Shown here in pieces: positions 2,205 to 59,930 of a stretch of 64,000 nucleotides of DNA; within the stretch, counting starts at the first letter, position 1, and each line of letters opens with the position of its first letter. The DNA comes from Gracilaria domingensis. Taxonomy: Eukaryota; Rhodophyta; Florideophyceae; Gracilariales; Gracilariaceae. The position numbers were made by a program, and so were the translations under genes. The DNA lies in NCBI GenBank assembly GCA_022539475.1, contig VCMS01000140.1, positions 203,437-267,436 on the forward strand, read 5' to 3'. The notes beneath the pieces are model-generated. The model was given only the letters and a program-made list of their open reading frames with translations. It was not told the DNA's origin and ran no database searches.

Positions 2205-3701
2205 ATGGACAAGTTTACCCTTCTTCCCGATCATGTCGAAAAGATTTCTGCCGTAAAAGCCATCACCTCCCATCTTCCATCTGAATCAATACAGAATATA
2301 TGTAGCACACTTAAGGTTTCTGTGAATGATCTGTCCACGATGACTGTTAATCGGAGGTGTGCAAATCTTTATTACGCGATTTTAGCATACGCATCTTACT
2401 ACCCGCGTCCAAAGCAATGCGAACATCAGCTTCACTGGGAGGTGGAACAAGTCACTGCCTGTCGTACTCCGGTGCCTCCGCATTTAAGGCATCTTTCGGG
2501 GCCGTTGGATACTACGTCCGACGTATACACAGACCTTGAGTTTAGCTTCGGAAATCGGCGCGCCCTGCTGTTATGGCCTCCCCCGTTGGCGCTAGAACCT
2601 GAGCGCATTGTCGAAGATCGAAAGAAAGTTGGAATTCAAAGATTGGAATTAGAAGTTTCAAAATCATGTGCCACGGTGCTTGATGAGTTGAACCATTCCG
2701 TGTTCCATGTCACCCGGTACGAACTGCCCGTGGTTGATTTGCATCATGAAGGATACACGAAGAAATACCTTCATATCGCGACAAGTGCTGGGGAACTCGC
2801 CCTGAAGAAGTTTGCGTTTGAAGTCGTTCAATGGTACAAAGAAATCCAGCCGAAAAAGTCCACACTCTCTAACGCATTTTCTCTTTATCGGTTTCGGGTA
2901 AATAAAAATGGGGGCAGGTGGAGTCATCAAGGTCAGCGTAACAATCGAGACCCTGAGTCCGTAGTCCTTTCAAAGGGATGTATGGAAGACATTCTTCAAG
3001 ATGTGGAGCACTTTTTGCGGCCGTCGACGCGAGAATGGTTTTCAAAACACGGCCTTCCATACAAGCGAAACTATCTGTTTTTCGGATCACCTGGAACGGG
3101 AAAGACTAGCACAATTAGGGTGATTGCGGGGCAATTCGAATTGGACTGTGCTTTTCTCAGCACGACTGATTTCAGCTTCAGCAACCAGCACTTGTTCGAT
3201 GCCCTGAGCGACGTCCCTCGAGATTCTGTTCTTGTTCTTGAGGACGTGGATGCCATCTTCAACAAAATGAGAGAGAATAAATTGGGAAATTCTCTTACGT
3301 ATTCTGGGCTGCTCAATGCGCTGGACGGCATTACGAGTAATAGTGGAAGTATTACCATTATGACCACAAATCATTTTGACAGGCTGGATCAAGCATTGAT
3401 TCGTGGTGGTCGAGTGGACAAACGCGTTTACTTTGGCCCTCCGTCTTCGGCACAAGTCACAGAGTTGTTCAAAAGATTCTATCCAGAGGCAAGCGATGAA
3501 TGTGCAAAGCGGTTCTGTGAGAAGGTATTTGCAAGAGCGGAACGAAAAGAAGCTCGAAGTATGGCCACGCTGCAACAATTATTCGTCAGAAACCGAGAGA
3601 AGACTGCAGCGGAATGCGTATGCATTGTTGATGAGTTTTATGAGATTTACTTCACAGAGAAGCAACAAGTGAAAGAGATGCAGGAAAACTCGATGTCATG
3701 A
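2205..3701 (+). CDS. BCS1-like AAA+ ATPase
   Basis: A 498-residue AAA+ ATPase of the BCS1 branch. The N-terminal 270 residues are a family-specific region. The ATPase core has Walker A GSPGTGKT (residues 294-301), Walker B VLVLEDVDAIF with acidic residues 346-349, and the BCS1-type stretch YSGLLNALDGI followed by MTTNHFDRLDQALIRGGRVD (sensor 1 and arginine finger region). Mitochondrial BCS1 matures complex III; plant relatives act in other membranes and in stress responses. No obvious transmembrane helix or targeting peptide is seen at the N-terminus, so location and substrate cannot be fixed. Single exon, starting at the first ATG of the frame. Family call is firm, role open. Confidence 0.9.
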   Translation: MDKFTLLPDHVEKISAVKAITSHLPSESIQNICSTLKVSVNDLSTMTVNRRCANLYYAILAYASYYPRPKQCEHQLHWEVEQVTACRTPVPPHLRHLSGPLDTTSDVYTDLEFSFGNRRALLLWPPPLALEPERIVEDRKKVGIQRLELEVSKSCATVLDELNHSVFHVTRYELPVVDLHHEGYTKKYLHIATSAGELALKKFAFEVVQWYKEIQPKKSTLSNAFSLYRFRVNKNGGRWSHQGQRNNRDPESVVLSKGCMEDILQDVEHFLRPSTREWFSKHGLPYKRNYLFFGSPGTGKTSTIRVIAGQFELDCAFLSTTDFSFSNQHLFDALSDVPRDSVLVLEDVDAIFNKMRENKLGNSLTYSGLLNALDGITSNSGSITIMTTNHFDRLDQALIRGGRVDKRVYFGPPSSAQVTELFKRFYPEASDECAKRFCEKVFARAERKEARSMATLQQLFVRNREKTAAECVCIVDEFYEIYFTEKQQVKEMQENSMS

Positions 3702-6870: not shown

Positions 6871-8304
6871 TCACGCGAGCGCCGTCGGGCGCCACCAAGT
6901 CTCGTCGGCATCACCCGGCTCCCCCCTGCCCGTGGTGCAGTACATGGCGTCCCACGCCATGCCGCACACTGCGCTCTGCACCTTCCTGCGGAACGTGCCC
7001 ACCCACTTCCACTTGTCACCGTCCAGCTCGTAGTAGTACACGGAATTCACCGGCTTGCGTTCATTCGTGATGCCCGCCACTACCAAAAAGCCGTTTCCGT
7101 ACTGCAACGTGCTAGCCGCAATGTGTCCCAGTGGCAAGGGCAGCTTCGCGCGCTCCACCCACTCATCGGTGTGGAAGTTGTACTCGTGCACCAGTCGCGA
7201 GTTGCCGTGTTCCTCGTCGGCTCGCTTCTGTCCGCCCACGAAGAAGTAGCGCCCATTCACGGCGACGGCCGACATGTGATTTCTGGCCGCGGGGATGTCG
7301 CTCATACGCTGCCAGCCAGTTCCTTGGTCGTCCAACTTGAGCATGTAAGTATCACGCGAATCATCACCATCCCACTCGTCTTGCTGTCGAATCATGCCGG
7401 ACGAGAAGAGCAACGCGTGTCGTTGCTTGATGTACACCATTCCACCACCGCCTACTGCCAGCGGTAGCTTGGGCAAATCGGTCCACTCGTTCTTTGAGTA
7501 CGAGAACACGTAACACTGACCCACACTTCTACCAGGCGCACTCGCCAAGAAGCCACCACACAAGTACATTCTGTCGTCCACAAACACTTGCGCGCAGTGC
7601 GTCAGATGTCTTGGCATATCCGCCACGCGCTCCCACTCTGCATCTTCCTTGCGTACATCGAGCACGTACGCCTTGCTCGTGGTGAGTAGATCGCTGTTGT
7701 CAATGTAACCGCCAGCCACCATCAGTAAATGACGGCCATCCGGCGCGTGCAGCATACCTCCTGCAGATTCCAGCAGTGCTAGCGGGTAGTCCGGCTTGGA
7801 CTGCCAGTAGTCCATGGTGAAGCGCGCGTCAGATGCTTTACCACCGTTGGCCACCGGCCCGGGTGTCAATTTCACCGGCTCAGGCGTCCATTTGACTGGC
7901 TCCGGTGTCCATGCGACGGGTTCCGGCGTTCCATTGGCAGGCACCGGCGTTCGCTCTGGCGCCGCAGCTGGCTCTGGAGTCGCAGCTGGCTCTGGAGTCG
8001 CAGCTGTCTCTGGAGTCGCAGCTGGCTCAGGCGTTGTAGCTGGCTCAGGCGTCGTAGCTGGCTCAGGCGTCGTAGCTGGCTCAGGCGTGGCAGCTGCAGA
8101 TTCCAACGTCCACTTGACCTCCACCGGCTTTTCTTCTGGCGTCGCAGCAGTAGGTTCCGGCGTCCATTTAACGGGCTCCGGTGTCCATTTCACCGGTTCC
8201 GGATTCGCATCGGCTCCGTCACCACCCTGTGCAGCAACAGAGACCAAAAGTGCCACGAGGAACGCCAGCGGCAGCAACCATAGCGTCAAACGACCAGATA
8301 CCAT
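6871..8304 (-). CDS. Secreted Kelch-repeat protein with Thr-Pro-Glu-Pro stalk
   Basis: A 477-residue protein from the ATG at 8304, chosen because it opens directly into a signal peptide (SGRLTLWLLPLAFLVALLVS, ending near AAQ). A low-complexity stalk of about 120 residues follows, built from TPEPVKW and TPEPATTPEPA units. The C-terminal half is a Kelch beta-propeller: repeated Gly-Gly followed by Tyr and Trp about 20-30 residues on (LMVAGGYIDN, MYLCGGFLAS, YFFVGGQKRA), each blade ending in a 'W..' strand. Kelch propellers bind proteins or sugars; galactose-oxidase-like enzymes share the fold, but no catalytic site could be assigned. The secreted, Pro-rich stalk suggests a wall or surface role (inference). 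The frame is open upstream to 8463 but that part is low-complexity. Confidence 0.85.
   Translation of the reverse strand: MVSGRLTLWLLPLAFLVALLVSVAAQGGDGADANPEPVKWTPEPVKWTPEPTAATPEEKPVEVKWTLESAAATPEPATTPEPATTPEPATTPEPAATPETAATPEPAATPEPAAAPERTPVPANGTPEPVAWTPEPVKWTPEPVKLTPGPVANGGKASDARFTMDYWQSKPDYPLALLESAGGMLHAPDGRHLLMVAGGYIDNSDLLTTSKAYVLDVRKEDAEWERVADMPRHLTHCAQVFVDDRMYLCGGFLASAPGRSVGQCYVFSYSKNEWTDLPKLPLAVGGGGMVYIKQRHALLFSSGMIRQQDEWDGDDSRDTYMLKLDDQGTGWQRMSDIPAARNHMSAVAVNGRYFFVGGQKRADEEHGNSRLVHEYNFHTDEWVERAKLPLPLGHIAASTLQYGNGFLVVAGITNERKPVNSVYYYELDGDKWKWVGTFRRKVQSAVCGMAWDAMYCTTGRGEPGDADETWWRPTALA
7857..8202 (-). repeat. Coding minisatellite (TPEP repeats)
   Basis: Imperfect tandem repeat inside the Kelch gene coding for Thr-Pro-Glu-Pro units. 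Two unit types alternate: a Val-Lys-Trp-bearing unit at both ends, and a tight block of short Ala/Thr-rich units in the middle. Neighbouring middle units are nearly identical in DNA, which points to recent slippage or unequal exchange and likely length variation between individuals. Confidence 0.8.
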
Positions 8305-9368
8305 CAAATAAAGGGAGGTGGGGGATTGAAGGGGAGGGGGAGAAGGGGAGGGGGAGCAGAGCAGAGTGATACCAGCATCTAGACCGACGACACTCAACGA
8401 CGGCGGAAATGCCTCATAAAAAGGTGCGCTGGGGCTGTCGCAGGCTATCGCTTCGGAATGCACGAGAAACGTTTACGCCGAGGACGAGGTTGAGGCGGTG
8501 GCGAAACGCGTGGCGCCTGTAAACCGCAATGACATGTTCGCTTGTCGGGACGCGGAGATGCGGCCGCCACCACCCGGCAAAGGCACCAGAGAGCTACCCC
8601 TCAGGGAGGCACACCGAGTGACGACGGGCTTGGAGAAGATGGCGAGCACGGGCGTGATGCTCTCGTGAAGATGGCGCCATTGAGCCGGGCTGCACCTCGT
8701 CCGGACGCCGGCGGCGCGCGCGCCCGGGCCTGCGCGTGCGCGGCGCGTGCGCGTCACGCCAGCTGTAATCTCTGCCGACCGTCAGCAACTGAGGTTAGCC
8801 GCCACAAATCGCGCCAAGCTCAACGTGTTTTGTGGTTATTTATCAAGGGTTCTTCTGGTAGCCTTTTCACGGATTTCTGAAAAGACGTTACGTCCGGCGG
8901 AGCTGCGCTCGCTGATGACGTGGAATTGCATGCGGCACGTACACGTGGCACTCGTGATGCGATCAAAAAGACGCTGTCATGTCGCGCTTTTGCGCCATCC
9001 GGGCAAAGGCTATGCGGCCCGGTGGCCCAGCCCCATCGCTTTCTCCCTCATGCGGCTGCTCCGCCTTGTCACCATGAGCCGTAGCATACCTTCGCGCTGG
9101 ATTAACATGTCCGTTCAGCTGAGCTTCTCTCTCCGCAAAATGTCAGCGCTTCTATTGGTGGGAGTAAACGCCGTTGATATTTAGTCCAACACAAGTTGTA
9201 CCACAGAATCCGTAGTACTTCTCATTCACGTTTTTCCTCCATCCTGTGCTGGCCCACGTTCTTTCTTTCGATGCAGCTCGTGATCATCATGAGCCCTGCT
9301 CTACCTTCAAGATGCCCGTCGGGGTGCTTTTCTCGGAAGCTTCCAACGATTATACTGGTACGAGTGTG

Positions 9369-10510: not shown

Positions 10511-10984
10511 GTGCTTCGGGATGAAGCTGCAAGCAATGAAGGTTTTCTGCAGCGTTGCCGAACTGCTTGCAAGTTTGCAAGCAAACATACTCTTATGCAG
10601 GTCTGCCTGCTTTATACAACGCATGTTACCGACAACTCAGACATTGTAACAAACAGGCAAATATGCGATATCCATTTTCTCACCAAAATGGATATCTATG
10701 AACATTTTGTAGAGTACTATCTCGCAGATTGCCACTTGTTGGGATGGAATGCACACGCAGGCTTTAAGAAAATGTTGCGAAGAGCAGATACACGCTGGCA
10801 CAAACACTTGACTCCTCCTGTGAACCAACGCAAAAAACCTCGGAAGTATTACTATAGAAGCTCCCTTCGGGAGTGGGATCAGCTAATGACAAAGTCCAAC
10901 TCATCAGTTGTCTGTTTTAAATCGAGTTGTATCGCTGATCAAACAGTTTCTTCTCTCTACTTAAGCTCGGACGCAATTAGATAA
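10511..10984 (+). CDS. Doubtful open frame, up to 157 residues
   Basis: Open frame upstream of the peroxidase gene on the same strand, ending 120 bases before its ATG. The stretch from MDIYEHFVEYYLADCHLLGW to the basic segment QRKKPRKYYYRS looks somewhat protein-like, but a palindrome (10667-10696) lies inside and no family is recognised. Could be a remnant or noncoding. Confidence 0.2.
   Translation: MLRDEAASNEGFLQRCRTACKFASKHTLMQVCLLYTTHVTDNSDIVTNRQICDIHFLTKMDIYEHFVEYYLADCHLLGWNAHAGFKKMLRRADTRWHKHLTPPVNQRKKPRKYYYRSSLREWDQLMTKSNSSVVCFKSSCIADQTVSSLYLSSDAIR
10667..10696. repeat. Perfect 12-base inverted repeat, 6-base loop
   Basis: Arms GATATCCATTTT (10667-10678) and its exact complement at 10685-10696 around CTCACC. 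It lies about 400 bases upstream of the peroxidase start. It could be a regulatory palindrome or a small hairpin. Confidence 0.7.
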
Positions 10985-11103
10985 GCTCCGTCCTCTTCCA
11001 CTCCAAGCTCGATCGCTCTGAGCGTGAAATCTCCCTGTTTCGAGAACGCGTCTTGCTCTCCAACCAGGGCTTTCAAGTTCATCCTCCATTCTTAAACCAA
11101 ATC

Positions 11104-12783
11104 ATGACTTGGGCTGGATGTCCTCTCTTTGTGGTTGCCCTGTTGCTGTCAATTACTTCCGCACAGCAGCCCTTCACTAGAGAAGGTGGAAGAGGATCAG
11201 TTGCCTTCCGTCCCCTCCCACCGGCTAAAGAGAAAGTAACCTCCGACCCGGATCCAGAATGTGTCAATCTGAGATTCCGTACTCTCTCCGGAAGGTGTAC
11301 CTCCCAAATTAGTTCTGCGTTAGGAGAAGCTCGTCGGGCACAGTTCAGTTATTTTGATGTCAGCTCCGTCGAGCCAAGTGGAGAAGACCTACCAAGCGCT
11401 CGCCTCATTTCTAACATTGTCAGTGAACAAGAAGGTGAGAGTGTTAACTCGGGAAGGCTCAATGAGCTTTTTACCTTCTTTGGGCAGTTCATTGATCACG
11501 ATTTTGCCCTCACGCCTCTGGATGAGGAAGAACGCTTGGACATCGACATTCCAGCCGACGATCCGTTCTTGTCATCACCACTGACTTTCTTCCGTTCGGA
11601 ACGCCAAAAGATTTCCGAAGATTCAGACAAGGAACGTCCCATTACTCTGGCTTCATCAGCGCTTGATTTATCTACTGTTTACGGAGTTGAAGAGGAACGT
11701 AATGCCTTCCTTCGGGTAGAGGGAGATTGCCGTCTCAAAACTTCAGGAGACAACCTTCTTCCTCTCAATACTGGAGGTTTCGTAAACTCCCCTAACATAT
11801 CGCCGGCATTTTTCATTGCCGGTGACACTCGAAGCAATGAAACTCCGATGCTCACTGTCATGCACACAATTTGGGTCCGTGAGCACAACAATGTTTGTGA
11901 TATTCTGGAGTCTAATCCGGACTTCGGTATAACTGACCCAGAAGAGTTGTACCAACTTGCTCGACTTGTTACTATCGCAGAGTATCAGAAGGTTGTGTTC
12001 GATGAGTGGCTGCCAGCGCTTCTTGGCTCCCGTCTCAGACGCTACAGAGGATACAACCCAACTGTGGATCCTACAATCAGTGTTGAGTTTACTACATCAG
12101 CGTTCCGCCTTGGTCACACTTTGGTTGGAGCCGATGTCAGTCGGATCGACTCTAGGGGAAACAAACTAACTCCCCTGCCTGCTGCTGAAATGTTCTTCGT
12201 CTCGGCCTCTGAATTCAAATCTGAAGATTTAGACGATTTCCTTCGCGGGGCTGTTCAAACAAGAGCTCAAGAGTTTGACGAAAAGGTCGTAGATACTCTC
12301 CGAAACTTTCTGTTTGAGGAGGTGCCCGAGGAAGAAGGTTTCGATTTGATAGCCCTCAACTTGCAACGCGCTCGTGACCATAATGTTGCCAGTTTCAATG
12401 TCTTGCGCCAATTCTTCCTCGGAAGCAGAGCTACTAGTTTTGCACAGATCTCGAACTCAGCAGCGGCGAATCTGGAGGCCGCGTATGGAGATGTGGATAA
12501 GGTGGAAGCGTGGATCGGTTTGATGGCTGAAAATAAGCCACGCGGGGCAATTGTTGGCCCGACTCTGAACGCTTTACTGAGGACTGAATTCGAGCGCCTT
12601 CGCGACGGTGATCAATTCTTCTACAAAGTCGCTGATCGAGTGCCAGACATTGTTCGTGAGACGTACCAGCGCATTAACTTCGACATCTTCTCGAGATCCA
12701 ATATTTTCAACAAGATTTTGAGGAGAACCAGTGGCGTGGAAGCTCGCTTCCTGCGTGGAGCATCCAACGCGTTCCAAAACTGA
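11104..12783 (+). CDS. Secreted animal-type haem peroxidase
   Basis: A 559-residue protein of the peroxidase-cyclooxygenase superfamily (animal haem peroxidase). The ATG at 11104 is chosen because it opens into a signal peptide (TWAGCPLFVVALLLSITSA). Key sites are visible: the distal His-Asp pair in FGQFIDHDFALTP (His 132), the conserved TPMLTVMHTIWVREHNN helix with its Arg-Glu, and the proximal haem-ligand His in FRLGHTLVG (His 338). The second signature helix LNLQRARDHNVASFNVLRQF matches the QRGRDHG-type motif. Length fits a single catalytic domain with no extra modules. Predicted to use hydrogen peroxide outside the cell, for halide oxidation, wall cross-linking or defence; substrate unknown. 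Single exon. Confidence 0.95.
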   Translation: MTWAGCPLFVVALLLSITSAQQPFTREGGRGSVAFRPLPPAKEKVTSDPDPECVNLRFRTLSGRCTSQISSALGEARRAQFSYFDVSSVEPSGEDLPSARLISNIVSEQEGESVNSGRLNELFTFFGQFIDHDFALTPLDEEERLDIDIPADDPFLSSPLTFFRSERQKISEDSDKERPITLASSALDLSTVYGVEEERNAFLRVEGDCRLKTSGDNLLPLNTGGFVNSPNISPAFFIAGDTRSNETPMLTVMHTIWVREHNNVCDILESNPDFGITDPEELYQLARLVTIAEYQKVVFDEWLPALLGSRLRRYRGYNPTVDPTISVEFTTSAFRLGHTLVGADVSRIDSRGNKLTPLPAAEMFFVSASEFKSEDLDDFLRGAVQTRAQEFDEKVVDTLRNFLFEEVPEEEGFDLIALNLQRARDHNVASFNVLRQFFLGSRATSFAQISNSAAANLEAAYGDVDKVEAWIGLMAENKPRGAIVGPTLNALLRTEFERLRDGDQFFYKVADRVPDIVRETYQRINFDIFSRSNIFNKILRRTSGVEARFLRGASNAFQN

Positions 12784-13377: not shown

Positions 13378-13971
13378 CTAAACCCCTGAACAAGTAGGCT
13401 TTCCAATGCTCGGCGTGTAAGAACCACCACAATAAGTCTCACAGCAAATTTGGCCGACATCCAAGAATACTGGCCGAATCTGAGAAAGATCCCCGTTAAT
13501 GTTTCTCCGCTTATACTCATAGCATGCTTCGAGGAAACCACCGCTGTTTTCATAACATGACCTCATACAAGAGAGCACTTCTGGCGGGTTTGCAATGGAA
13601 ATAAAGGTGACCCCCAAATTCGGACAAGAGCATTGCACACCAAATTCAGTTGGTGCGTGATCCGTCGTGCCGGTGGTGCAGGCCGTCGGGGACGGTGACG
13701 GAGTTGGGATAGGAACATTCTGATACTCTGCGCAAGTTGCGAACGGTCCTCGTCCATACGCACCTTGTGCTTGGCAACCCTTTAGAATGCACTGGTCCAG
13801 TCTTGACAAGCACCCATGGAACGCAATCCAGGCAGGTAAACATTGATTCGGGCAAGGAAGATATCGAGATGAGTGAATCGATCGTGGCCGAATTTCCGGT
13901 TGGCCGTAACTAAGTTCAGCAGAAAACATTACGCCACCAAGGGCAACGAAGATGGCGAGAAGTGAAATCAT
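13378..13971 (-). CDS. Small secreted Cys-rich protein
   Basis: A 197-residue protein with a clear signal peptide (ISLLAIFVALGGVMFSAELS) and 16 cysteines in the mature part, many in pairs (LPCPNQC, QCILKGC, VQCSC, ICCETYC). A short Pro/Ser/Thr linker (PIPTPSPSPTACTTG) divides two Cys-rich halves. This pattern suggests a disulfide-rich extracellular protein of two small domains. No family recognised. The ATG is the first in frame and directly precedes the signal peptide. A perfect 11-base inverted repeat lies about 70 bases upstream. Confidence 0.75.
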   Translation of the reverse strand: MISLLAIFVALGGVMFSAELSYGQPEIRPRSIHSSRYLPCPNQCLPAWIAFHGCLSRLDQCILKGCQAQGAYGRGPFATCAEYQNVPIPTPSPSPTACTTGTTDHAPTEFGVQCSCPNLGVTFISIANPPEVLSCMRSCYENSGGFLEACYEYKRRNINGDLSQIRPVFLDVGQICCETYCGGSYTPSIGKPTCSGV

Positions 13972-14716
13972 TTTCCTTTCGTGACTGAGGCAGAGTTGAG
14001 AATTCTGTTCCTCTCAAATTTTGGGAGCGAAGGGAAAGTTAACCGGACCCCTTCCCCGAGGTCCGGTTAAATACGAAAAAGGGATCGAAGTTCAGTAACC
14101 ATGCGGCCGTCACAATCACGTAGCGATTCTGCAAAACGATCAATTAACGAAGCTAACATGTCATGTCTTCGCGAGCCTTGTATGATAAGATGACATCATG
14201 TATCTATGATCCCGTTCGGAAGTAGCAAAGATGTAAGATCCCAGTGTGCATCGTGAACCATCCTCGTACGCCACGTGCGCCATTCCTCGTTGGCATTCGT
14301 AGCATATTGCTGCTACCCAGGGTAGAATAAGTATATTTGTCTTCAGGTTAGCAGTTTCTAATCATACTTTCAATTTTTATCGACTCACATTACATTCAGA
14401 TTGGAGGCAAAAGATGCACAACTTGCAACGCTTGGAAAACCCAGGGAAAATCGAAACTTCTGCAGTTCTCTTCTTCTTTCTTCTTTATTTTGGGCAGTAG
14501 TTTCTTATTCCTAAACTAAAGTGGAGCCTCAGAGGAGGTTCTCTCTCTTTAGAAAGGCCAAGAAGTTCTGTGAACTATGTCTTATCAGGTACTGCACTGA
14601 TGATTTGGCCTCATGTGGCTGTCCAGCCAAGATTCTGCATTTCATTCAGACTCATCGCAATGACACACCCAATAAAAATTCGAGATGCTGGTGACAGTTC
14701 CACGTTTTCTCAACTT
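13972..14716. other. Spacer upstream of the Cys-rich gene
   Basis: About 745 bases holding the promoter of the Cys-rich gene and the 3' flank of the F-box-like gene. The inverted repeat at 14039-14070 is the only structure noted. Confidence 0.4.
14039..14070. promoter_or_regulatory. Perfect 11-base inverted repeat upstream of Cys-rich gene
   Basis: Arms TTAACCGGACC and GGTCCGGTTAA with a 10-base loop, 68 bases upstream of the start codon on the minus strand. Position suggests a promoter palindrome or a hairpin in the 5' leader. No direct support for function. Confidence 0.45.
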
Positions 14717-16351
14717 TCAGTCGCAATTCCGCCACCAAATGAACAGCTCCGAATACAAATCACTGATATCTACACTACGTTTCATACGTGAAAAGTTATG
14801 CACTGCCAGTATTGCATCTTCCAGAACCCTCTTGAGCCGTTTCTTGCAGCACTGACAGACGGAAGCTGGCGCCTTAGAAAAAGTAATCTTCTCAAGTCCA
14901 GGCATAGATGCATGAACTAGCTGAAGAAAATATGGAACACCTTCTAGATTTTTTATGTCCTCTTCCAAAGCGACTTCACATTGCTTCCTTTCCGCAGCTG
15001 ATCGTCGGAACAATTGAACGCTCTGGAGCTTGTGCATGTGATCAGCTGCTCGTCGGTGCGTCTCCCTGACTGAAGCTTCGATTTTGAAATGCTTCAGAAT
15101 AGAAGCAGAACACTGTAACTCCATTCTGGTCCCACTGTGTTCAAGAACACCTGATAGAAACCCGAAAACAACTTTCGAGCTTTCGTAGACAGCTGGACAT
15201 GTTTTGCATTCGATCGTCTTCAACCATGGTTTGCTTCTTTCGATCAGTGTGTTTGCAGAATTTCTCATCGCGGAACTTAAAGCATATTCGCTCATGGAAG
15301 ACGACGAACGTAGATGAAATACACTTAGCCCCTCAAGTGCTGATGGGAAGATTCTTAATAATTGGAACGCGTTTGCACTGAACTCCATTTCCCTGAAAAC
15401 TCGTTTTCTATCAGCATTTTTTCCGAAGTAGAAGACGGATCCGATTGAGTCCCACCTCAGGACCAAGTCCGCGTATCCGGAGAACAGGTCGCACATAGCC
15501 TCTAAGAAATTGCATCCCGCAACATCGCTCATATCGGAAATCAGAGCGACTTCAAGTGTTGCCAATTTGGGCATATATGTCTTTGCATGGCAGAAAAGAA
15601 AACGAAGTATGCACCTCTCTGCTTCGATTTCATGGTAATGCTCGTGATTTTCAAAAGAATGACGGGATGTTACAGACGCATATCCATTTATCTCAAGATG
15701 TTTGAGATACCTTCCTTTTGCACTAAGGTATCTCTCAAATTCATGGGTGGAATAGACATCTAGTTGCCTTATTCGAAGGACCTCCACGTTCGATCGGCTT
15801 TGAGATAAGGCCCTTAACGTAACTTTGCTGGCTGAAGAAATATGAACCTTCTTTAGATTCGGGAGTTCGACCAACGCACGCTCTAAAACCTGTTCATCTT
15901 CGACAGTGCTTTGAAAGACTACAATCTCTTGCAGTGCTACACATGCGCCAACTTGTAAGAGGATGTCGCGACTGGCTTTTGATTCGGCAACAATCCTCAG
16001 CTTCAGGGTTCGCAATCTGCTTGTTTCTGTTTTTGCAGCTGCTGAGCACAAAAACTCCACGACTTCAGCATGATAATTGAATAGCTCCACTCGAAGTTTG
16101 TCACAGCACAGGACAGAGGAGTGCAACTCCGGGCGGATCACGTTGTCAGTGACAAAATCTATGCACGTAACGGTTCTACGAATATATTCTGAAATCATTT
16201 TCGAAAAAAATTCTTTCGAAAACATTAGAGTCCCTATAGCGTTTAACTCTCGGAATGAAGCAAAGTGTTTGATCTGTACACATTTTTGGAGAGGTTTCCA
16301 TTTGTCAATAATGACGGAGAGGACGTCTTCAGGTAGTTCTCTGATGCTCAT
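14717..16351 (-). CDS. F-box/LRR-like protein
   Basis: A 544-residue single-exon protein. The first 45 residues (SIRELPEDVLSVIIDKW, then VQIKHFASFRELN) have the layout of an F-box: Leu-Pro-x-Asp/Glu near the start and a hydrophobic helix after it. The rest shows irregular leucine-rich strands such as LRTLKLRI, LPNLKKVHI, VEVLRIRQLDV, LKHLEING and LEKITF. F-box/LRR proteins select substrates for SCF ubiquitin ligases. A Cys cluster (CQCCKKR) near the C-terminus is unusual. The F-box match is by eye and moderate; the repeat part is more convincing. Confidence 0.7.
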   Translation of the reverse strand: MSIRELPEDVLSVIIDKWKPLQKCVQIKHFASFRELNAIGTLMFSKEFFSKMISEYIRRTVTCIDFVTDNVIRPELHSSVLCCDKLRVELFNYHAEVVEFLCSAAAKTETSRLRTLKLRIVAESKASRDILLQVGACVALQEIVVFQSTVEDEQVLERALVELPNLKKVHISSASKVTLRALSQSRSNVEVLRIRQLDVYSTHEFERYLSAKGRYLKHLEINGYASVTSRHSFENHEHYHEIEAERCILRFLFCHAKTYMPKLATLEVALISDMSDVAGCNFLEAMCDLFSGYADLVLRWDSIGSVFYFGKNADRKRVFREMEFSANAFQLLRIFPSALEGLSVFHLRSSSSMSEYALSSAMRNSANTLIERSKPWLKTIECKTCPAVYESSKVVFGFLSGVLEHSGTRMELQCSASILKHFKIEASVRETHRRAADHMHKLQSVQLFRRSAAERKQCEVALEEDIKNLEGVPYFLQLVHASMPGLEKITFSKAPASVCQCCKKRLKRVLEDAILAVHNFSRMKRSVDISDLYSELFIWWRNCD

Positions 16352-17322: not shown

Positions 17323-19177
17323 TCATTGACAGCTAAGTTGGGTGGCTCTGCTCCCAGACGAAGAACTACAGAATTCCTCCATGCTGTATTTTCCTGAAAT
17401 TGTCCGAACGGGTTGAGACGATGAAACTGCCAAAGATGCACTTTGACCTACAGGATGAGGTGTGAATATGGATACGAGTAGTAGTAGAACCCCGACTGAG
17501 AACGCTAGTATAAAGAATGCTCTGAGCTTATTGAAAGGTAGAGAAGTGTCTGGTTCCCTTCTGCAATAAGGGAGCGCGTTGAAGAACCTTTGCAGCCGGG
17601 GTAATGCCAACCCTGCCTGTATATCAAGCGTAGCCTGACTCATAGGTGCCACAAGAGGCGACCCCTTCGGTAGTACCATAGATAAGCCGCCTGTAGATAT
17701 TGGATCTCCCACTAGAGCGAAATCACCGCAGAATCTTCCTCGAATCGCAACGTTAATCGCTGATTCCATACCAATACCGTATGTGCATCTTCCGCTCTTC
17801 ATTGCTTCGAAAAGCTTGTCATATGAACTATAGTAGGTCGGTGAACTCTGTTGATGACACTTTCTGCAATGATATTAAGGCCAAATGAAAACAACGTCGT
17901 TCATGGAATGCCTTCTGGTTAGTGTCGGTATTGCAAACGGAAGGCGTTGAGAACTTTTCTTACGTAGTGGCAATAGCGTTTTCCCACAGTTGCTGTAGAC
18001 CGCCCCCACCAATCAAGCACACTTCGGATGGATCAATTTTGCATGTACGAAAGTCTTCGGCCGAGGTAAATCCCGAATTGATTGTATCTTGGACAAGTGA
18101 AGCGCTTCAGGAGGCGGAAAGAAAAGGAAAGGTAAGAAGCTTGATTGGACATCTCGTCTATCACAAAATACGTGAGCAAGGATGTGACATGAAAGCTTAC
18201 GTCATGCTGGCCTCAAAGGACAGAATCAAGAATAGAGCCACGATACCGATAATGAGATTGAGGAACCAGTGACGAAAATTATTTTCGTGTTCTATAGGGT
18301 CCGGCAGCAAAGTCATTCTCGAGACTGGGAAATAGACGCACGGGAGGGGAGAAAAGAAAAACATGAGTATAATCGCTGAGATGAGACAAGAAGCTTTCAG
18401 CTTACCTGTACTTTGAACGCATTCCAGAAAATGGTGGGGAAACCCGCTCTCTTTTACATAATGAGAGAAGCGTCGGTACCAACGTTGCGTGGCGGGTAAA
18501 GGTGTATATTGAGAATTCTCTGTAAACTGGAAAACGCGCATTTTCAGAAGTAAGAACAAAAGGAATAGAACCAGGATGCCAAACCAGGCTGCCTTATCAA
18601 ATGTGTTGAGAAAGAACCAAATATTGCCTGAGACTGTAGTGGTGGAAGTGTGAACGAAGACACGATCACGGTCGTATACAAATGGAGGAAGGAAGCTTAC
18701 TTTCGAATATCGATGAGCGTTTTGCAGCCAACCCCCTAGACCAATATCACAAACGCAGTTTGAAGACGGATATATCTCGCCCGTGGTTTGGTTCGTGCAT
18801 TTAAACATGGTATCGATGAACTCATTAAAGCCATTCCCTTCTTTTTGAGGGAAGGATATCACAGTACCACACGACCAGTTCAGATAAGCCTGGTGTTGAA
18901 TGAGATATTCAGCAATTACGCCGTCGAGTCCATTCTATATTTGTCAGAGAGAATACGGAGGTGTCGGTGTTAGACTTGCGAAGAACTTGAGAAGAGAGTG
19001 ATATACGCGTACGTTTGTGTAAACTTGCTGGTTTTTGAAAGATATTGGGACCTCTGTTATCATGCAGCAGCGAAGAGGCTGGTGTTGCGACAAAGAGTTT
19101 CGCACACCTGAGACAAAACGAAACGATAAAGCGTGAAGGACATGAAAGAGGATGACAGGTATAAACCTCCTCCACAT
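17323..19177 (-). CDS. Ionotropic-glutamate-receptor-like channel, copy A
   Basis: Inferred four-exon gene: 19177-19013, 18934-18201, 18104-17964, 17863-17323. Reading phases join to give 526 residues. It starts with a signal peptide (WRRFIPVILFHVLHALSFRF). Layout follows the ligand-gated glutamate receptor core: S1 lobe with CDIGLGGW and FLPPFVYDRDR; M1 about 167-187; a hydrophobic pore-region segment about 235-260; M3 about 278-300 ending SFEASMTASLV, like the SYTANLAAFL signature; S2 lobe with CTYGIGMES and FCGDFALVGDP; and M4 about 459-480. There is no amino-terminal domain, so it is shorter than animal or plant receptors. Ligand and ion choice unknown. Introns are short, with GTACGC, GTAAGC and GTAAGA donors. 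It is head to head with copy B. Confidence 0.68.
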
Positions 19178-19443
19178 CTTTAGATACACTGTTCTGACTT
19201 CATAGGATTGAGCCGCAGGGCTGCGAAGTGAAATACGATTGCTGGAAATGACGTTCCTTTCTGAAGACGTCTCGTACGGAGGACGTTCCGTTCGGAGGAG
19301 GTTTATGTTTGTTTAGCAGCGGAGTTCTTTCGTTGCAGCGAGGAGTCGGCAATGTTGTCATGTGACAACATCGCGCCGTGATTGGGGAATAAAGAGCAGC
19401 ACAACAATGTCAATGCCACGCGCCAACAATGCAGTTTCACTAC

Positions 19444-19476
19444 AAAGCCTCCTCTCAGCAGCTGAGAGGAGGCTTT
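19444..19476. repeat. Perfect 16-base palindrome with one-base spacer
   Basis: Arms AAAGCCTCCTCTCAGC and its exact complement at 19461-19476 around a single A, followed by T residues. In RNA it would be a tight GC-rich stem. It lies roughly 270 bases upstream of channel copy A. Confidence 0.85.
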
Positions 19477-20012
19477 TTGCGAAAGAGTAGCTACACATAC
19501 TACCTTCGTAACCTTCGTCACGCTTATCGGAAGCTGCCGTTTTGCCGCACTAAACTTGCAGATTTGGCCCGGCCTTTCAATGAAGTGAAAGCTACACGTA
19601 CGTTTACCGTTGTACCTTTGTAGAAGCATGAGTAAGGTTGATACTTGTCAGCCAATGTTGGCTTTTCGATCAACATCATCAACCAGGTGCGAGACAATTT
19701 GGCTGTTCCTGAAGGTGGATACAGCACTTCCTATGGCACCGTCGGTAACGCTTTGCTCTCCTTTCTTCTTTGAGTGCTTCAAACAACCTTTGTTTTAGTC
19801 CCGTTCATGATTGGAGACTTCTAAAGGCTAAGCCTTACGATCATCATCACCATGATCGTAGATCTGGCATGATGTTATGAACCTCTATGAAGTGTCTCTG
19901 ATTGGGTTGGAACAGACACTCCCTAATGTTAGATACCCTTGTACTCTTAAACCTGTGACATGGCGAGTTGTCAGATTACAACTGTATTTCGCCGAACTTC
20001 ACTTTTGACGTG

Positions 20013-20070
20013 ACTTCGAAAAATGAAAGATAACATTATTGAAAGAAAACATTCTTTCATTTTTCGAAGT
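20013..20070. repeat. Perfect 18-base inverted repeat, 22-base loop
   Basis: Arms ACTTCGAAAAATGAAAGA (20013-20030) and its exact complement at 20053-20070. The 58-base fold has the size of a small-RNA precursor hairpin, but could also be a miniature mobile-element remnant. It lies about 350 bases upstream of channel copy B. Confidence 0.8.
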
Positions 20071-20415
20071 TGGCATCCAATAGACTCTAGCTAGTAACCC
20101 TTACTTCATTCTGACACTTAATCTCAAGAAACGAGGTTCCCCCTGAGAGTTGAGTTTGCAAAACCGGCTTCACGCGTAACGACAATAAACACAAGAATAC
20201 AGGGGGGAGAACTTGGCGTCGTAAGCATACCCTCGTAGAACTAGTGACAACTAGCCAAAAACACACTTGATAGTTTTGGTCGTCACCTCGTTGGACGCAC
20301 TGTTCTAATCTCGTGCAATGCACAATCGTCACGCACATGACCTCGTGCTCTTGTCCAAAGTCCGAAGAAGCTCATTGTCGCAAACTCCCATACTGAGGTT
20401 CCAGCTTTTCCACAA

Positions 20416-22291
20416 ATGGCACAACTTCGATTGTTTCTCGTTGTGTCGTTCGCAACACTCGACGCTGTGTTGGCCATTCGGAACTCGCTATCGTCACATC
20501 CGCCATTGCGATGTTGCTTCATGGAAGAAGCTCCAATTAGTTTTAGGAACGACCGAAACAACTGGGGAGTACGTTGTTCAAGCCGACTTGCATTCAACTA
20601 CATCCTGTCGGTTGCCACTAACTTGCTTTGATTGTTTTATGGTCCTCAGAATGGCTTGGACGGCGTCATCAAAGATTTTTTACTTGAACATCAATCTTAT
20701 CTGGGTTGGAGATGTTCGTCCATAGTCCCCTTTAGCCAGACAAACGGTACCGATTTCAATGCATTCGTAAGCACCATGTATAACTGTACCAACAAGTCAA
20801 CTGGACAAATAATTGATTCTCCAATTGTGCTTGTGATATCGGACTAGGAGGCTGGGTCCAAACCCGATTTACTTTCTTACCGCCGTTTGTTTTCGAGCAA
20901 TACGTGGTTTTCACTCATGTATCTCAGACCAACGTCTCGGGCAAGCTTTGGTTCTTTCTTCAGACATTTGATGTTTCAGTTTGGATATCTATACTGTCCT
21001 TGTTTGTCATGTTCACCTTTTTGAAGATGTTTGACTCTAGATTCGATCCTCCTTCTCCATACACTCCGCTCCCCGACACGTATAACAGATTCCGGCGCTT
21101 TTTGCACTATGTTACAAAGAGCAATCTTTTGCGCCGATTGAGAAAGGCTATTCAAAGTACAAGTAGGTCCCAGTTTTCATTCTCATGCGTCACAAAGCTC
21201 TGTGTCATGCTCTTAACAACTTTCATTTTGTACGATTTCTCGACATGTTCAGTGATGAGAATGCTGATGCTTTCAGATGAGCCTTACGTTATAAATGGAA
21301 ACACCACGCGTCAATGGTTCCTCAACATGATTCTCGCGGTATCCGCCTTATTTCTCATATTGTCGTATGAGGCGGCTATGACGTAAGTTACTCATTCTTA
21401 AGGTCTTCTCTCGTCCTCAATGTTATCTCCAATCTCACTTCTGCCTAATTCCTTGTCTCTTCCTTCGTTGCTCAGAGCATCCCTCGTACAAGAATCTATC
21501 AAGACCGAGTTTCAGTCTGTTGCAGATTTTCAGAACTGTCGCATCAAACCTTCAGAAGTATGTCTACCTAAAGGTGGTGCCTTCGAGACCTACTGGAACA
21601 AGTCCATTGCAATTAGGTACGATCTGTCTTCTAAACATTCGTCGCGAGTCGTACATCCTAGGTGAGCATCAACAATCTGACTCGAAGCGCTTTTCGTGTT
21701 CTTCGTCGAAGCGAGTGCCACAATGAAAATCCAGCAAAATTTATCAATTCGTATCCTGAACTTTATGAAGCGGTTGAAAGCGGTCATTGCAGATATGGTA
21801 TTATCCTCCAGTCTTCAATCTCTTCAGCGATTCGAGAGAAATACTGTGGCCATATCGTGATTGTGGGAGAACCACTCAAACGCGAAGCCCTTTCAATGCT
21901 CATTCCAATTGGTAGTAATCTGACAGATCCCATGAGTCTCGCAACCATCGAACTGATGAACAATCAAAGCAGTCCGTCCCTTCGGAAATATTTGAACACC
22001 CTGCCACAGTGCAGAGCGGATGGAAACACCATTCTTAGAATCGAAAGGCTCTGGGTTTTCTTTGCAATTGCGTTCTCATTCGGTGGCGTTATATTTTTGT
22101 TGATGGTGCTTGTGCCTGAACAGTCCGTTAGACAAACTGAATGTCAAAATTTTCTCAGCCCCGGACCGCAAGGAAGCCAACGAAGTGAAATCCCTCCGTG
22201 TCGTACAGAAATCTGTAGCTCGTCGTTAACGGAAAACAGTTGGGAAGAGCAGGCATGTAGCAGTTCTACATCCAGTTTGCCAATCCACTAA
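20416..22291 (+). CDS. Ionotropic-glutamate-receptor-like channel, copy B (possible pseudogene)
   Basis: Paralogue of copy A in opposite orientation. Exons by homology: 20416-20568, 20650-21382, 21476-21616, 21712-22291. Signal peptide AQLRLFLVVSFATLDAVLA, then shared RNSLS(S/Q)H.PLRCC. Channel landmarks: CDIGLGGW, M1 within LWFFLQTFDVSVWISILSLF, M3 ending ILSYEAAMT, S2 with CRYGIILQSS and YCGHIVIVGEP, and M4 within LWVFFAIAFSFGGVIFLLM. Donors are GTACGT, GTAAGT and GTACGA. Exon 3 has the same length as in copy A (141). Exon 2 is 733 bases against 734 in copy A; one base is missing around 20,810-20,835, shifting the frame just before CDIGLGGW. This is either a real inactivating change or a sequence error. 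The C-terminal tail is Ser-rich and longer than in A. Confidence 0.62.
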
Positions 22292-28911: not shown

Positions 28912-28934
28912 GATCGAGTCATCGCCCAGTGCAA

Positions 28935-29167
28935 TGATGAGATTACAGACTTTATTGAATTGTCAGATCTAACGTAATAGATATTATGTAGGATATCACT
29001 ACTTTGAATTGTATGGTTCTGAGGCTCCCTGTACTTAGCTTCTTCATACCTGTACTGTTTTTAGCAGGGTTTTACAGTACTACAACTTACATATAAGGAC
29101 TACCATTGCCGGGTAGATGAGTAAACGGGCCAACTATCCGCCCAGCTTCTCTCCACTTCAGCCATCA
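28935..29167 (+). repeat. Copia-B 5' LTR
   Basis: 233 bases, TGATGAGATT ... AGCCATCA. One difference from the right LTR. Confidence 0.93.
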
Positions 29168-29420
29168 GTGGTAGCATCGCCTCGGGAACGACTCCTGAGG
29201 CCCTGCAATTCGACCATGAACGACGGGGATAGTTCAAAGCGCATCCCTCGCTTCAACGCTCGTCGCGGGGAAGACTTCGTTCTCTGGCAAATGCGATTTG
29301 AGGCTCTCCTCGAATCAAAGGAATTACTCTCCTCGGTGACAGCGGACCCAATTGGAGAGCGAGGTGAAGATGAACTCGAGAACGCCGTTAAGCAGAATGT
29401 TGCTAAGGCACGTATGATTC

Positions 29421-32400
29421 TTGTGCAGGCTTTGGGGGACAAACCGCTCCGTACCATCTCCTCAGACCGTCGAAATCCTTTCCGAATGTATGCTGAAGGA
29501 AAGGTACGCTACAGTGAATGCAACCACGAGGGTACAACTGCAAACAGAGCTCCACCAGAAGACGTACTCGGAAGACGTGAGTATGTCCGAGTACATCGAC
29601 GATATCGAATCAATATTCAGCAGGTTGGAAGCAATGGGGAGCCGTGTCCAGGATTCGATGCAAGTGGCGATTCTTTTGGCCAGTTTTGGAAACGCAAGTG
29701 ACACACCGTATGGCCCCGTTATCAGTGCGTTACAAACTCTGAAGGAAGATGAGCTCAACTGGGACTCGGTAACTGCACGCTTGCTCCAGGAATACAAAAC
29801 GCGGGAGCTTGGAAAGCCAAGTAGCAGTTCCGATGTGACAACAACCGAAGAGAAGGCTCTGAAAAGTAAGGCTGCAGTACAATGTTTCTACTGTGGCAAA
29901 TTCGGTCACTACAAACGAGAATGCCGGAAACGTAAGAGTGACATGAAGTCTAAAAGCAACAGGATAGACCCTCAGTACGCGCTAATGGTGCGTGGTGGGC
30001 AGCCGAAGACCTGTTTTGTTGTTGACTCTGGTGCCACGAAGCATATGATGGGTGATTCTGTGTTCAGTGAAGAGTTTCATTTGACCGTGCCTGTACCCAT
30101 CTCCCTTGGAGATGGACGGCAATTAGTGCCAACCAGAGTTGGAAACTTTGAACTGATCATCCAGTCACCATCAGGCAGCCAGCTGTCATGCATACCGCTA
30201 CGAGGAATGCTACTAGTGCCGGAATTGGATGGAAACCTGATATCGTGCCGGGCCCTGGCACATTCAGGCTTCAACACAGTAATCGATCACAATGGCTGCA
30301 CACTTTCAGACGGCCATACTCAGGTAAATATGAGAGGACCCCTGCATGGACTGTACGAAATCCGTGGCCTTCTGAGACCCCTTAGGACCCAGTCTGCCCG
30401 CACTGCGGCTGTAGAAAGCCCAACTGCTGGAATAGAACTCTGGCATTACCGCTTCGGGCACATTGACAGGAACCGTATTCGCCAGATGAGTACAGAAGGC
30501 ACTGTCGATGGTTTAGATCTTAACACAGCTCCGGATGAGGGCTCACGGTGTGTTCCGTGCACAGAAGGGAAGATGTCAAGATTACACCTCCAAGCCCGTA
30601 CTTTAAAGTTTCTTGAAGTAGGTGAAGTAATATTCTCTGACATCTGTGGTCCACTAAAGACTGCCAGTATGGGAGGGAAGAAGTTCTTCATCACGTTTAC
30701 CGATGGTCGATCCGGGTACCGCACAGTGTCGTTGTTACGAAAGAGCAGTGAAGCGCTACAAGCCTTTCGCGACTTCCACAGGTTCTTTGAGCGCAGATTC
30801 AGGTGTGTTGTGCAGATGCTACACTCGGACAATGGGTCAGAGTATATGGGGATGCAGAACTACCTGAGAGAATCTGGCATAGAATGGGAGTCTTCAGCCC
30901 CATATACACCGCAGCAAAATGGGGTAGCTGAGAGACTGAACAGGACCCTCATGGACATGGTCCGTTCTATGCTCAGCCACGCCGGACTACCTCCAACGTT
31001 CTGGGGGGAAGCTCTCATGACTGCAGTGGCTCTACGTAACTTCACTGGTTCTTCAAAGAACAGAGGTCGAACACCTATTGAGGAGCTGACTGGAAAGAAG
31101 CCATATGTAGGACACATCAAGATTTTTGGGTGTGAGGTGTGGCTTCACTCGGCTAAGAGATCCAAACTCGAGCCTAAGGCGAAGAGAGGCATTCTCATGA
31201 GATGTCTACCACACCGGAACTACAGTGTTTACCTCACTGACTCCGGGAGAATCACGAAGGTACGCCATGCGATTGTGAACGAAACCAAATTCCCGGGAAG
31301 AGAGATCTTCCGAACACAGACAGTGAGTGATATGACCGTGCCTGAGGCCGTAGCGGATGTACTTGAAGGACCACATGCCAGCCACACGGAAGATCCAGAT
31401 AATTGTTCCTCAGAGCTGGGTCCAGTACAACACACCACTTCCCAGCCTGCCCCTACTAACGAACAAGACAATACCAGTGACACGGGGGAAGAAGATGCAA
31501 GCGATAAAGGTGACACTGGCCCAAGAGAGCTTACTGAGTCTGAACTGGAGTTCGTGACACACTATCCCATTCGGAGGTACCCAGCTAGAAAGAGAAGACC
31601 ACCGCAAAGATACGAAGCTTCTCGGAGGGCTTCCGTAGGAGACTGGTCCAACACCACAGCAATACCGAGAACAGTTGTAGAGGCATTGAGCTGTGAAGAA
31701 TCTGAGCATTGGAAGGCTGCGATTGACTCAGAGCTTCACACTTTGCGCCAAATCGGTACATGGGGAAAGGTAAAGCTCCCGCCTGGCGCGAAGGTGATAC
31801 AGTCTAAACTGGTTTTTGCAAAGAAGAAGCTTGCGGATGGGTCTCTGGACAAGTACAAGGCCAGACTTGTTGCCGGCTGCCAACAGGGACATGTCGACAA
31901 CCTGTTTGCCCCTGTGGTCGATTTTCATAGCGTGAGAGTCGTCCTCACTCTCGCAGTGAAGCTTGGGTACACTGTCCATCAGATGGATGTTAAGTCAGCT
32001 TTCCTCAACGGACGGATGGATGCTGAGGCACATGTGTATATGCTGCCACCTGAGGAAATTGACCTGGGTCTACAAGAAGGGGAGGCGCTGCTGCTGAAGC
32101 GCACATTGTACGGCCTCAAGAACTCGAATCGAATCTGGGCACAGACATGGAAGGCGTGTTTGCAGAGTCTTGGGTACAATGCCACGGTCCGAAGAATGCC
32201 TTTCGTGAAGACTGGGGTATGGGGTATTACTTGGGTCCTGGTGTATGTGGATGACATCCTGATTGTTGGTAAGTCTGCTGAGAGCGTGAACCATGCGAAG
32301 CGGGAGCTACAGTCTAGATTCCAGATGACAGACATGGGTGAAGATAAATCTTTCTTGGGCGTCGAGTTCAAACCGATGGCTAGTGGGATTTGTATAAGGC

Positions 32401-33188
32401 AATCGGGTTTCGTCGAGAAGTTGCTACAAGACACTGGCATGAGTAACTCGAAGCCTGTTTCAACACCTATGCTGTCGTACGCTGAAACAGACACACATTC
32501 CCCAATTCTGGAAGCAGACACCCATTCATTCTTCCGTGAAGCACTAGGGTCTCTACTTTACCTGTCATCGCGATCGAGACCAGACATTTCATTTGCGGTT
32601 AATGCACTCAGTCGGAGGCAGTTAAACCCAACTGCGGTGGACCTGGTTGCGTTGAAGCGAGTCCTGAGGTACCTCCGTGGATCGGTCTGTCTTGGGCTCC
32701 CATACGTCGCAATGGCCAAGTCCCTCACACTTACTGCATATTGCGACAGTGACTGGGCTAGAGACAGGGTGGACCGGAAGTCTATTACTGGGTTTGCAAT
32801 ATACTTGGATGACTGCTTGGTCTGCTGGAAGACAACTAAGCAGAGAAGCATTGCAATGTCGACTTCCGAGGCGGAGTTTATTGCGCTGTCGGACTGCGTT
32901 CGTGAAGTAATGTGGCTGCGAAGTCTTCTGAGAGATCTAGGTGTGCCACAGATGGACGCTACAGTTATCTACGAGGACAATACCGGCGCAATCTGCTGGG
33001 CGAATTCGCAGAAACGCCCCAAGCATGTGGATATTCGTTTCCATTTTGTCAGAGATGCGGTTGATAGGAAGAAAGTTGCAGTTGTTCACTGCCCAACTGA
33101 GAAGATGAAGGCAGACATTCTTACGAAGCCATTGCAACCGAAGAGGTTCTTGGACTTACGCGCTGCGATTGGGCTACAGGATATCTGA
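29421..33188 (+). CDS. Copia-B polyprotein, main open frame
   Basis: A 1,255-codon open frame of the Copia polyprotein. In order: gag part; zinc knuckle CFYCGKFGHYKREC (about 29,884); aspartic protease VVDSGATKHMMGD (about 30,018); integrase zinc site (HYRFGHIDRNRI ... CVPC, about 30,440-30,560) and core (HSDNGSEYMG about 30,822; YTPQQNGVAERLNR about 30,905); reverse transcriptase (about 31,690-32,440, with YVDDILIV about 32,243); and RNase H (about 32,735-33,180: AYCDSDWARDRVDRKS, STSEAEFIALSDCV, YEDNTGAICW). The first part of gag lies in another frame from 29,117, so the element is not strictly whole. Confidence 0.92.
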   Translation: MCRLWGTNRSVPSPQTVEILSECMLKERYATVNATTRVQLQTELHQKTYSEDVSMSEYIDDIESIFSRLEAMGSRVQDSMQVAILLASFGNASDTPYGPVISALQTLKEDELNWDSVTARLLQEYKTRELGKPSSSSDVTTTEEKALKSKAAVQCFYCGKFGHYKRECRKRKSDMKSKSNRIDPQYALMVRGGQPKTCFVVDSGATKHMMGDSVFSEEFHLTVPVPISLGDGRQLVPTRVGNFELIIQSPSGSQLSCIPLRGMLLVPELDGNLISCRALAHSGFNTVIDHNGCTLSDGHTQVNMRGPLHGLYEIRGLLRPLRTQSARTAAVESPTAGIELWHYRFGHIDRNRIRQMSTEGTVDGLDLNTAPDEGSRCVPCTEGKMSRLHLQARTLKFLEVGEVIFSDICGPLKTASMGGKKFFITFTDGRSGYRTVSLLRKSSEALQAFRDFHRFFERRFRCVVQMLHSDNGSEYMGMQNYLRESGIEWESSAPYTPQQNGVAERLNRTLMDMVRSMLSHAGLPPTFWGEALMTAVALRNFTGSSKNRGRTPIEELTGKKPYVGHIKIFGCEVWLHSAKRSKLEPKAKRGILMRCLPHRNYSVYLTDSGRITKVRHAIVNETKFPGREIFRTQTVSDMTVPEAVADVLEGPHASHTEDPDNCSSELGPVQHTTSQPAPTNEQDNTSDTGEEDASDKGDTGPRELTESELEFVTHYPIRRYPARKRRPPQRYEASRRASVGDWSNTTAIPRTVVEALSCEESEHWKAAIDSELHTLRQIGTWGKVKLPPGAKVIQSKLVFAKKKLADGSLDKYKARLVAGCQQGHVDNLFAPVVDFHSVRVVLTLAVKLGYTVHQMDVKSAFLNGRMDAEAHVYMLPPEEIDLGLQEGEALLLKRTLYGLKNSNRIWAQTWKACLQSLGYNATVRRMPFVKTGVWGITWVLVYVDDILIVGKSAESVNHAKRELQSRFQMTDMGEDKSFLGVEFKPMASGICIRQSGFVEKLLQDTGMSNSKPVSTPMLSYAETDTHSPILEADTHSFFREALGSLLYLSSRSRPDISFAVNALSRRQLNPTAVDLVALKRVLRYLRGSVCLGLPYVAMAKSLTLTAYCDSDWARDRVDRKSITGFAIYLDDCLVCWKTTKQRSIAMSTSEAEFIALSDCVREVMWLRSLLRDLGVPQMDATVIYEDNTGAICWANSQKRPKHVDIRFHFVRDAVDRKKVAVVHCPTEKMKADILTKPLQPKRFLDLRAAIGLQDI

Positions 33189-33201
33189 CAATGGGGGGGA
33201 A

Positions 33202-33434
33202 TGATGAGATTACAGACTTTATTGAATTGTCAGATCTAACGTAATAGATATTATGTAGGATATCACTACTTTGAATTGTATGGTTCTGAGGCTCCCTGTA
33301 CTTAGCTTCTTCATACCTGTACTGTTTTTAGCAGGGTTTTACAGTACTACAACTTGCATATAAGGACTACCATTGCCGGGTAGATGAGTAAACGGGCCAA
33401 CTATCCGCCCAGCTTCTCTCCACTTCAGCCATCA
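33202..33434 (+). repeat. Copia-B 3' LTR
   Basis: 233 bases; differs from the left LTR by a single base near the CATATAAG box. Confidence 0.93.
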
Positions 33435-33481
33435 GTTTACAGCACAGCCTTTTGCATCCTCCAGAGATTCTACATCGGGCG

Positions 33482-59640: not shown

Positions 59641-59930
59641 ATCGAAACTCACCGAATAGATACCCTGAAAATGCTCTCGTTGCCCTCAATGTAGACATCC
59701 CCTTGGTTAGTTTTCTGTTGCCTAGTCTCTTCGTCCATCCCAACATGGAAATAAACACACTTACCTCAACATTCTTCGCCATCTTCATCTCCCCAACTCC
59801 CTCGAAAACATCTCAACTGCACAATTTCCAGCACCGCCACCGATCCATTGCCATCCAACGCACCTGCACATGCACAAACACAAGCTAGTCAAATACTCCG
59901 TTAGATACTTTTCCATCTTCGAAACTTTCC

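Follow-up and report, generated by a model that had tools for sequence, protein, structure and literature searches.

Glutamate receptor-like (GLR) channels of plants carry an amino-terminal domain (PMC10281673), and GLRs have been described in diatoms and brown algae as well as, in a single case, in Chlamydomonas (PMC11085791). Among red algae, GLR homologues have been reported in Porphyra umbilicalis, Gracilariopsis chorda and Pyropia/Neopyropia (PMC7028691, PMC8969420), with three GLR genes per Pyropia genome (PMC8969420). In Pyropia, 0.1 mM L-glutamate speeds wound-induced spore release, the differences being moderate, and at 1 mM the share of fragments that released spores was only 21.3% (PMC8969420). 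In Pyropia yezoensis, 1-aminocyclopropane-1-carboxylic acid (ACC) promotes sexual reproduction, and glycine and glutamate are said to do likewise in unpublished work (PMC7028691). As of that report, characterisation of a GLR from red algae was still lacking, and no description of how the domains of such a GLR are arranged was found in the searched portions of the open-licence literature. In bacteria, GluR0 combines a ligand-binding domain with a channel and is described as a K+ channel (PMC13099474). Here, we analysed a 64,000-nucleotide stretch of DNA (contig VCMS01000140.1; hereafter the window), in which a head-to-head pair of genes, A and B, occupies positions 17323-22291. Gene A is probably a divergent member of the ionotropic glutamate receptor superfamily that lacks an amino-terminal domain, and it is proposed to encode a ligand-gated channel; its host is a eukaryote and probably one of the multicellular red algae. 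The presence of the family in red algae is already known, and the novelty would lie in the variant anatomy.

The two genes point away from each other, gene A (17323..19177) lying on the minus strand and gene B (20416..22291) on the plus strand. The limits given for the pair in the initial annotation are right, since 17323 is the final base of the stop codon of gene A and 22291 that of gene B. Both gene models were built from the genomic sequence alone, without transcripts. Gene A was modelled with four exons (19177-19013, 18934-18201, 18104-17964 and 17863-17323) separated by GT...AG introns of 78, 96 and 100 nucleotides (nt), and its spliced frame is open from ATG to stop and encodes 526 amino acids. 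Gene B, a paralogue of A whose protein is 44% identical, was modelled with exons 20416-20568, 20650-21382, 21476-21616 and 21712-22291, and its frame is broken in exon 2. In both genes, three introns of 78-100 nt with GT...AG ends are predicted at matching places of the alignment; the intron ends were set so as to keep the frames open and to match between the two genes, some acceptors having been picked because A and B then agree, and the matching intron positions are thus partly a choice. A spacer of 1,238 nt (19178..20415) with three short inverted repeats separates the two start codons. Perfect inverted repeats within it lie at 19444-19476 (16-nt arms, 1-nt spacer) and 20013-20070 (18-nt arms, 22-nt spacer).

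The assignment to the glutamate receptors is carried by several searches. In Pfam-A scans of the whole proteins at E ≤ 10, Lig_chan (PF00060) was the sole family matched by A and by B, with 19.4 bits for A (E = 0.001; residues 268-354) and 24.5 bits for B read with one X (E = 2.7e-5). Searching the PDB with A alone returned 102 matches at E ≤ 10, the best 60 of which were all glutamate receptors, with a top E-value of 0.0061. A two-sequence profile of A and B returned 250 matches, with AMPA-type receptors or chimeras throughout the best 60 and a top E-value of 1.6e-7, and its match extends over M3-S2-M4; when this profile was reversed, as one control, the PDB gave no match at E ≤ 10. At the level of sequence, the similarity of A and B to glutamate receptors is beyond chance. 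Moreover, a profile of S2 only returned 151 matches (best 60 all AMPA-type receptors; top E = 1e-4), and one of S1 and M1 only returned 66, in which 59 of the best 60 were glutamate receptors, nearly all labelled NMDA (top E = 0.06). As these two profiles do not overlap, the same family was reached from two parts of the proteins, one firm and one weak. From these alignments, homology is solid over M3-S2-M4 and weak over S1-M1. The earlier reading of both genes as coding for proteins of the ionotropic glutamate receptor type is thus supported by the Lig_chan match, the single-sequence and two-sequence PDB searches and the S1+M1 and S2 profiles, and A and B very likely belong to this superfamily. 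NCBIfam gave no match, and neither did Rfam at gathering thresholds in the window. Relatives were also sought in IMG/VR and in GTDB genomes with two short peptide patterns each, and none was confirmed among the pattern matches in IMG/VR (43 for the whole alignment, 38 for the S2 block and 98 for the M1-P-M3 block) or among the 80 in GTDB (whole alignment); these collections consist of viral and prokaryotic contigs, so this absence says little.

The order of segments described in the initial annotation, namely a signal-peptide-like start, S1, M1, a pore-position hydrophobic segment, M3, S2 and M4, was found in the pair, and hydropathy plots of A and of B each display a hydrophobic N-terminal stretch followed by four hydrophobic regions. 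In protein A (all coordinates on the minus strand), a hydrophobic N-terminus of residues 1-24 (19106..19177; hydropathy peak 1.68) is a putative signal peptide, and the S1 lobe region (18629..19078), backed by the S1+M1 profile and the cysteine positions, starts about 10 residues past it in the gene model. No amino-terminal ligand domain ahead of S1 was detected in the Pfam scan of either protein, and between the start codons lies only the spacer described above. The absence of this domain, as claimed earlier, therefore holds. The M1 helix was placed by hydropathy at residues 160-187 (18539..18622). The WFFLxTFDxxxW region of A aligns weakly and insignificantly with the pre-M1/M1 part of GluA2, and this region also lies inside the GluN2A match. 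M1 is followed by a basic loop (residues 188-235; 18395..18538) and by the hydrophobic segment at the pore position, P (residues 236-262; 18314..18394). M3 (residues 275-305; 18089..18277), which spans intron 2, was located from the Lig_chan stretch and the PDB alignments. It ends in SFEASMTASL in A and SYEAAMTASL in B, so that the endings SFEASMT and SYEAAMT noted previously are both present. These endings align in place with the gate motif SYTANLAAFL, inside the Lig_chan match, with 4/10 identities in A and 5/10 in B; the exact motif is not kept, and the third residue is acidic in both. The S2 lobe, delimited as residues 304-455 (17539..18094), spans intron 3 and was recognised by the S2-only profile. 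The M4 helix (residues 456-481; 17461..17538; hydropathy peak 2.81) precedes a tail of 45 residues.

Twelve cysteines of S1 and S2 occupy positions common to A and B. Six of those in S2 of A, including C392 and C447, are common with B, and the Cys-bearing segment reported earlier for S2 was recovered as FCG..LVGDP in A and YCG..IVGEP in B. With respect to topology, the twelve cysteines fit a place of S1 and S2 outside the cell, as do the N-glycosylation sequons, 9 of 10 of which fall in S1 or S2 (2/2 in A and 7/8 in B), and the density of lysine plus arginine (K+R) is highest in the M1-P loop among the five regions counted, at 15.7 per 100 residues in A (residues 186-236) and 20.8 in B. Two points tell against the predicted topology: the tenth sequon, in B, sits in the P-M3 loop, which is modelled inside the cell, and the C-terminal tails, likewise modelled inside, are not basic (6.5 and 5.2 K+R per 100). 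On balance, the data fit a predicted topology with S1 and S2 outside the cell and the M1-P loop inside.

Two residues of the ligand pocket can be aligned in A, an arginine in S1 and an acidic residue in S2. Arg130 (18710..18712) aligns with the arginine of the GluN2A INEER motif, and Glu380 (17764..17766) with the glutamate of the AMPA-receptor LLES motif. In the receptors, this arginine binds the ligand α-carboxylate, and the glutamate holds its α-amino group. The threonine five residues before the arginine and the Ser-Thr of AGSTKEFF are ligand-binding positions too, and here A departs from the receptor pattern, having Leu at the former and Gly-Leu at the latter. Since these other classical pocket residues are changed, the ligand may differ from glutamate. 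An amino-acid-like ligand is plausible for A, with glutamate itself uncertain.

Structure prediction did not settle the fold. The AlphaFold alignments contained A and B only, with two sequences for exon 4 and three rows for exon 2, in which B stood in two pieces. Fold searching with Foldseek, using the exon 4 model, gave glutamate receptors in 31 of 31 matches, the best at E = 0.72 and none at E ≤ 0.001; this fold search depends on the sequence too and is not independent of it. With this best E-value and low-confidence models, the two-lobed clamshell, for which the initial annotation proposed a check by structure prediction, is not demonstrated.

A number of results weigh against gene A as a glutamate-receptor-type channel, and they bear on two rival explanations. 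Both Lig_chan scores lie under the curated cut-off of 30.8 bits, and the matched stretches span M3 and early S2, covering neither M1 nor P. SBP_bac_3, the second profile named in the initial annotation, was absent from the Pfam-A matches of both whole proteins (E ≤ 10). Pieces searched alone in Pfam fared worse: S1+M1 of A and S2 of A had no match, S2 of B matched only ExsD (E = 0.18), M1-P-M3 of B matched Lig_chan (E = 0.2) and HRG (E = 0.57), and M1-P-M3 of A matched Wzy_C (E = 0.39). In the PDB, the S1+M1 profile got no further than E = 0.06, and one of the matches listed is a beta-glucosidase. The AlphaFold models are of low confidence, with a mean predicted local distance difference test (pLDDT) score of 48.7 for exon 4 and 39.4 for exon 2. 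A membrane protein of another family that resembles glutamate receptors by chance would agree with the weak single-sequence scores (E = 0.006 for A in the PDB, Pfam below the cut-off and pieces insignificant there). However, non-overlapping parts indicate one family, the reversed control was empty, and the order of the segments, the cysteines of S2 and two residues of the pocket all agree, so we regard chance resemblance as very improbable.

The pore is the second subject of doubt. A profile of the M1-loop-P-M3 block alone found no PDB match at E ≤ 10, and in this respect the pore-region segment of the initial annotation was not borne out as a recognisable glutamate-receptor pore. The identity between A and B is 26% in P, 31% in M4, 38% in the loop, 44% in S2, 53% in S1, 57% in M1 and 64% in M3; P is thus the least conserved segment, although good conservation would be expected of a filter there. 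Moreover, this long hydrophobic stretch contains no glycine in A or B. These features would suit a receptor without a conducting pore, in which the clamshell and the membrane anchors are kept, the pore segment is degenerate and the protein serves to sense a ligand or joins another channel as a partner subunit. Against this, no segment is better conserved than M3, which includes the gate region and part of the Lig_chan match, suggesting that gating still matters, and a filter can hardly be judged from a pair of sequences of which one is broken; we hold a non-conducting receptor of this kind to be unlikely. A broader and tentative idea, which we also rate as rather doubtful, is that of a lineage that keeps the ancient ligand clamshell and the M3 gate, while a long hydrophobic segment without glycine, preceded by a basic loop in the cytosol, has taken the place of the pore loop. 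The product would be either a channel, of whatever selectivity, with an acidic ring at the gate, or a non-conducting signalling receptor. A ligand-gated channel is the best explanation for gene A, though one reached by inference.

Gene B does not support the earlier statement that a whole receptor is encoded by each of the two genes, as its frame is broken as assembled. The break lies around 20821..20826 (plus strand) in exon 2, directly ahead of the conserved C.CDIGLGGW stretch; the spliced frame meets a stop at codon 117 and yields 116 residues, and from the break onward an open frame of 425 codons runs to the stop at 22291. An intron bypassing the break was considered and rejected, by eye only. 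About 40 nt downstream of the break, B has a 15-nt in-frame deletion relative to A that takes out the region of Arg130. The A+B profile, which has the length of A, aligns gap-free to GluN2A across this stretch, which suggests that the length difference represents a loss in gene B. At the position of Glu380 of A, gene B carries Gln. Differences between the two genes by codon position (0.43/0.35/0.66) indicate long past selection on the protein; synonymous divergence (dS) is saturated over the whole gene and thus provides no date and no overall ratio of nonsynonymous to synonymous divergence (dN/dS). Given this long selection, gene B either is a recent pseudogene or carries an assembly error. 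That B is a working gene and the break an error of assembly or sequencing would agree with the 425 open codons, the GT...AG ends of its modelled splice sites and the codon-position pattern. This alternative is harder to reconcile with a break that lies outside any long single-base run and with the absence of the Arg130 region and the Gln at the Glu380 position, which fit a loss of ligand binding, and we consider it possible, yet somewhat less than probable.

Taking gene A as a ligand-gated channel, the following working is proposed. Protein A would enter the secretory pathway, and outside the cell its S1 and S2 would make up a clamshell of two lobes, rich in cysteines. The clamshell would close when Arg130 and Glu380 hold a small ligand, which is most likely an amino acid, and this closure would pull on M3. 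Four subunits might then open a path for cations that M3 lines, while the hydrophobic segment preceding M3 dips in from the cytosolic side. Gene B would be the old paralogue in which both residues of the pocket and, in the present assembly, the reading frame have been lost.

Compared with GluA1, GluA2 and GluN2A, receptors of the AMPA and NMDA types that work at the nerve synapses of animals, the two proteins are alike in the S1-M1-P-M3-S2-M4 order, the M3 gate region and the S2 segment, and A is also alike in its aligned pocket arginine and glutamate. Unlike them, A and B are without an amino-terminal domain, their P segment is unrecognised, they have the twelve common cysteines in S1 and S2, and their gate motif reads SFEASMTASL or SYEAAMTASL with the acidic third residue. 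The basic M1-P loop of A, at about 48 residues, is longer than that of GluA2, which has roughly 30 residues. GluR0 lacks an amino-terminal domain and M4 and has a K+-type filter. Compared by description only, it resembles A and B in uniting a ligand-binding domain with a channel, and differs from them in that an M4-like segment is present in both A and B, where by eye there is no K+-type filter. Arthropod ionotropic receptors (IRs) have divergent pockets and mostly lack an amino-terminal domain, and their likeness to A and B is drawn from this general description only. Plant GLRs are of the same superfamily as A and B and differ in having the amino-terminal domain. Red algal GLRs also belong to this superfamily.

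To these reports the window adds an intact gene model with a readable anatomy: the amino-terminal domain is missing, cysteines are numerous, one loop is basic and the pore segment is not recognised. Red algae are the outgroup to green plants, and gene A, should its host prove to be a red alga, would be a concrete, intact candidate receptor with a testable pocket. In addition, a receptor so reduced and with so unusual a pore segment would bear on the evolution of the filter in the superfamily.

The window has a eukaryotic look, with apparent spliceosomal introns in its genes and a copia-type retrotransposon. Near the pair, on the minus strand, lie a frame of 544 residues (14717-16351) and one of 211 residues (13378-14013) rich in cysteine by eye, neither with a Pfam match at E ≤ 0.01. 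An open reading frame at 10981-12783 (plus strand) encodes a haem peroxidase domain of the animal type (An_peroxidase in Pfam, E = 7.9e-111); such peroxidases are reported to be highly duplicated in florideophyte red algae (PMC10817344), which makes a red alga a plausible host. Further genes encode an AAA ATPase with a BCS1-type lid domain (2190-3701, plus strand) and a Kelch-repeat protein (6871-8472, minus strand) that by eye starts with a hydrophobic stretch and contains a repeat region rich in TPEP. From 59500 to 64000, the GC skew turns abruptly and strongly negative, at about -0.24 to -0.50 per 500 bases, and a weak, below-cut-off match to a Plavaka transposase lies inside this region at 61192-62538. 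A copia-type retrotransposon occupies 28933-33436, with a long polyprotein frame at 29418-33188. It is bounded by 237-nt direct repeats at 28933-29169 and 33200-33436 that are 100% identical, and these are probably its long terminal repeats, the insertion being probably recent.

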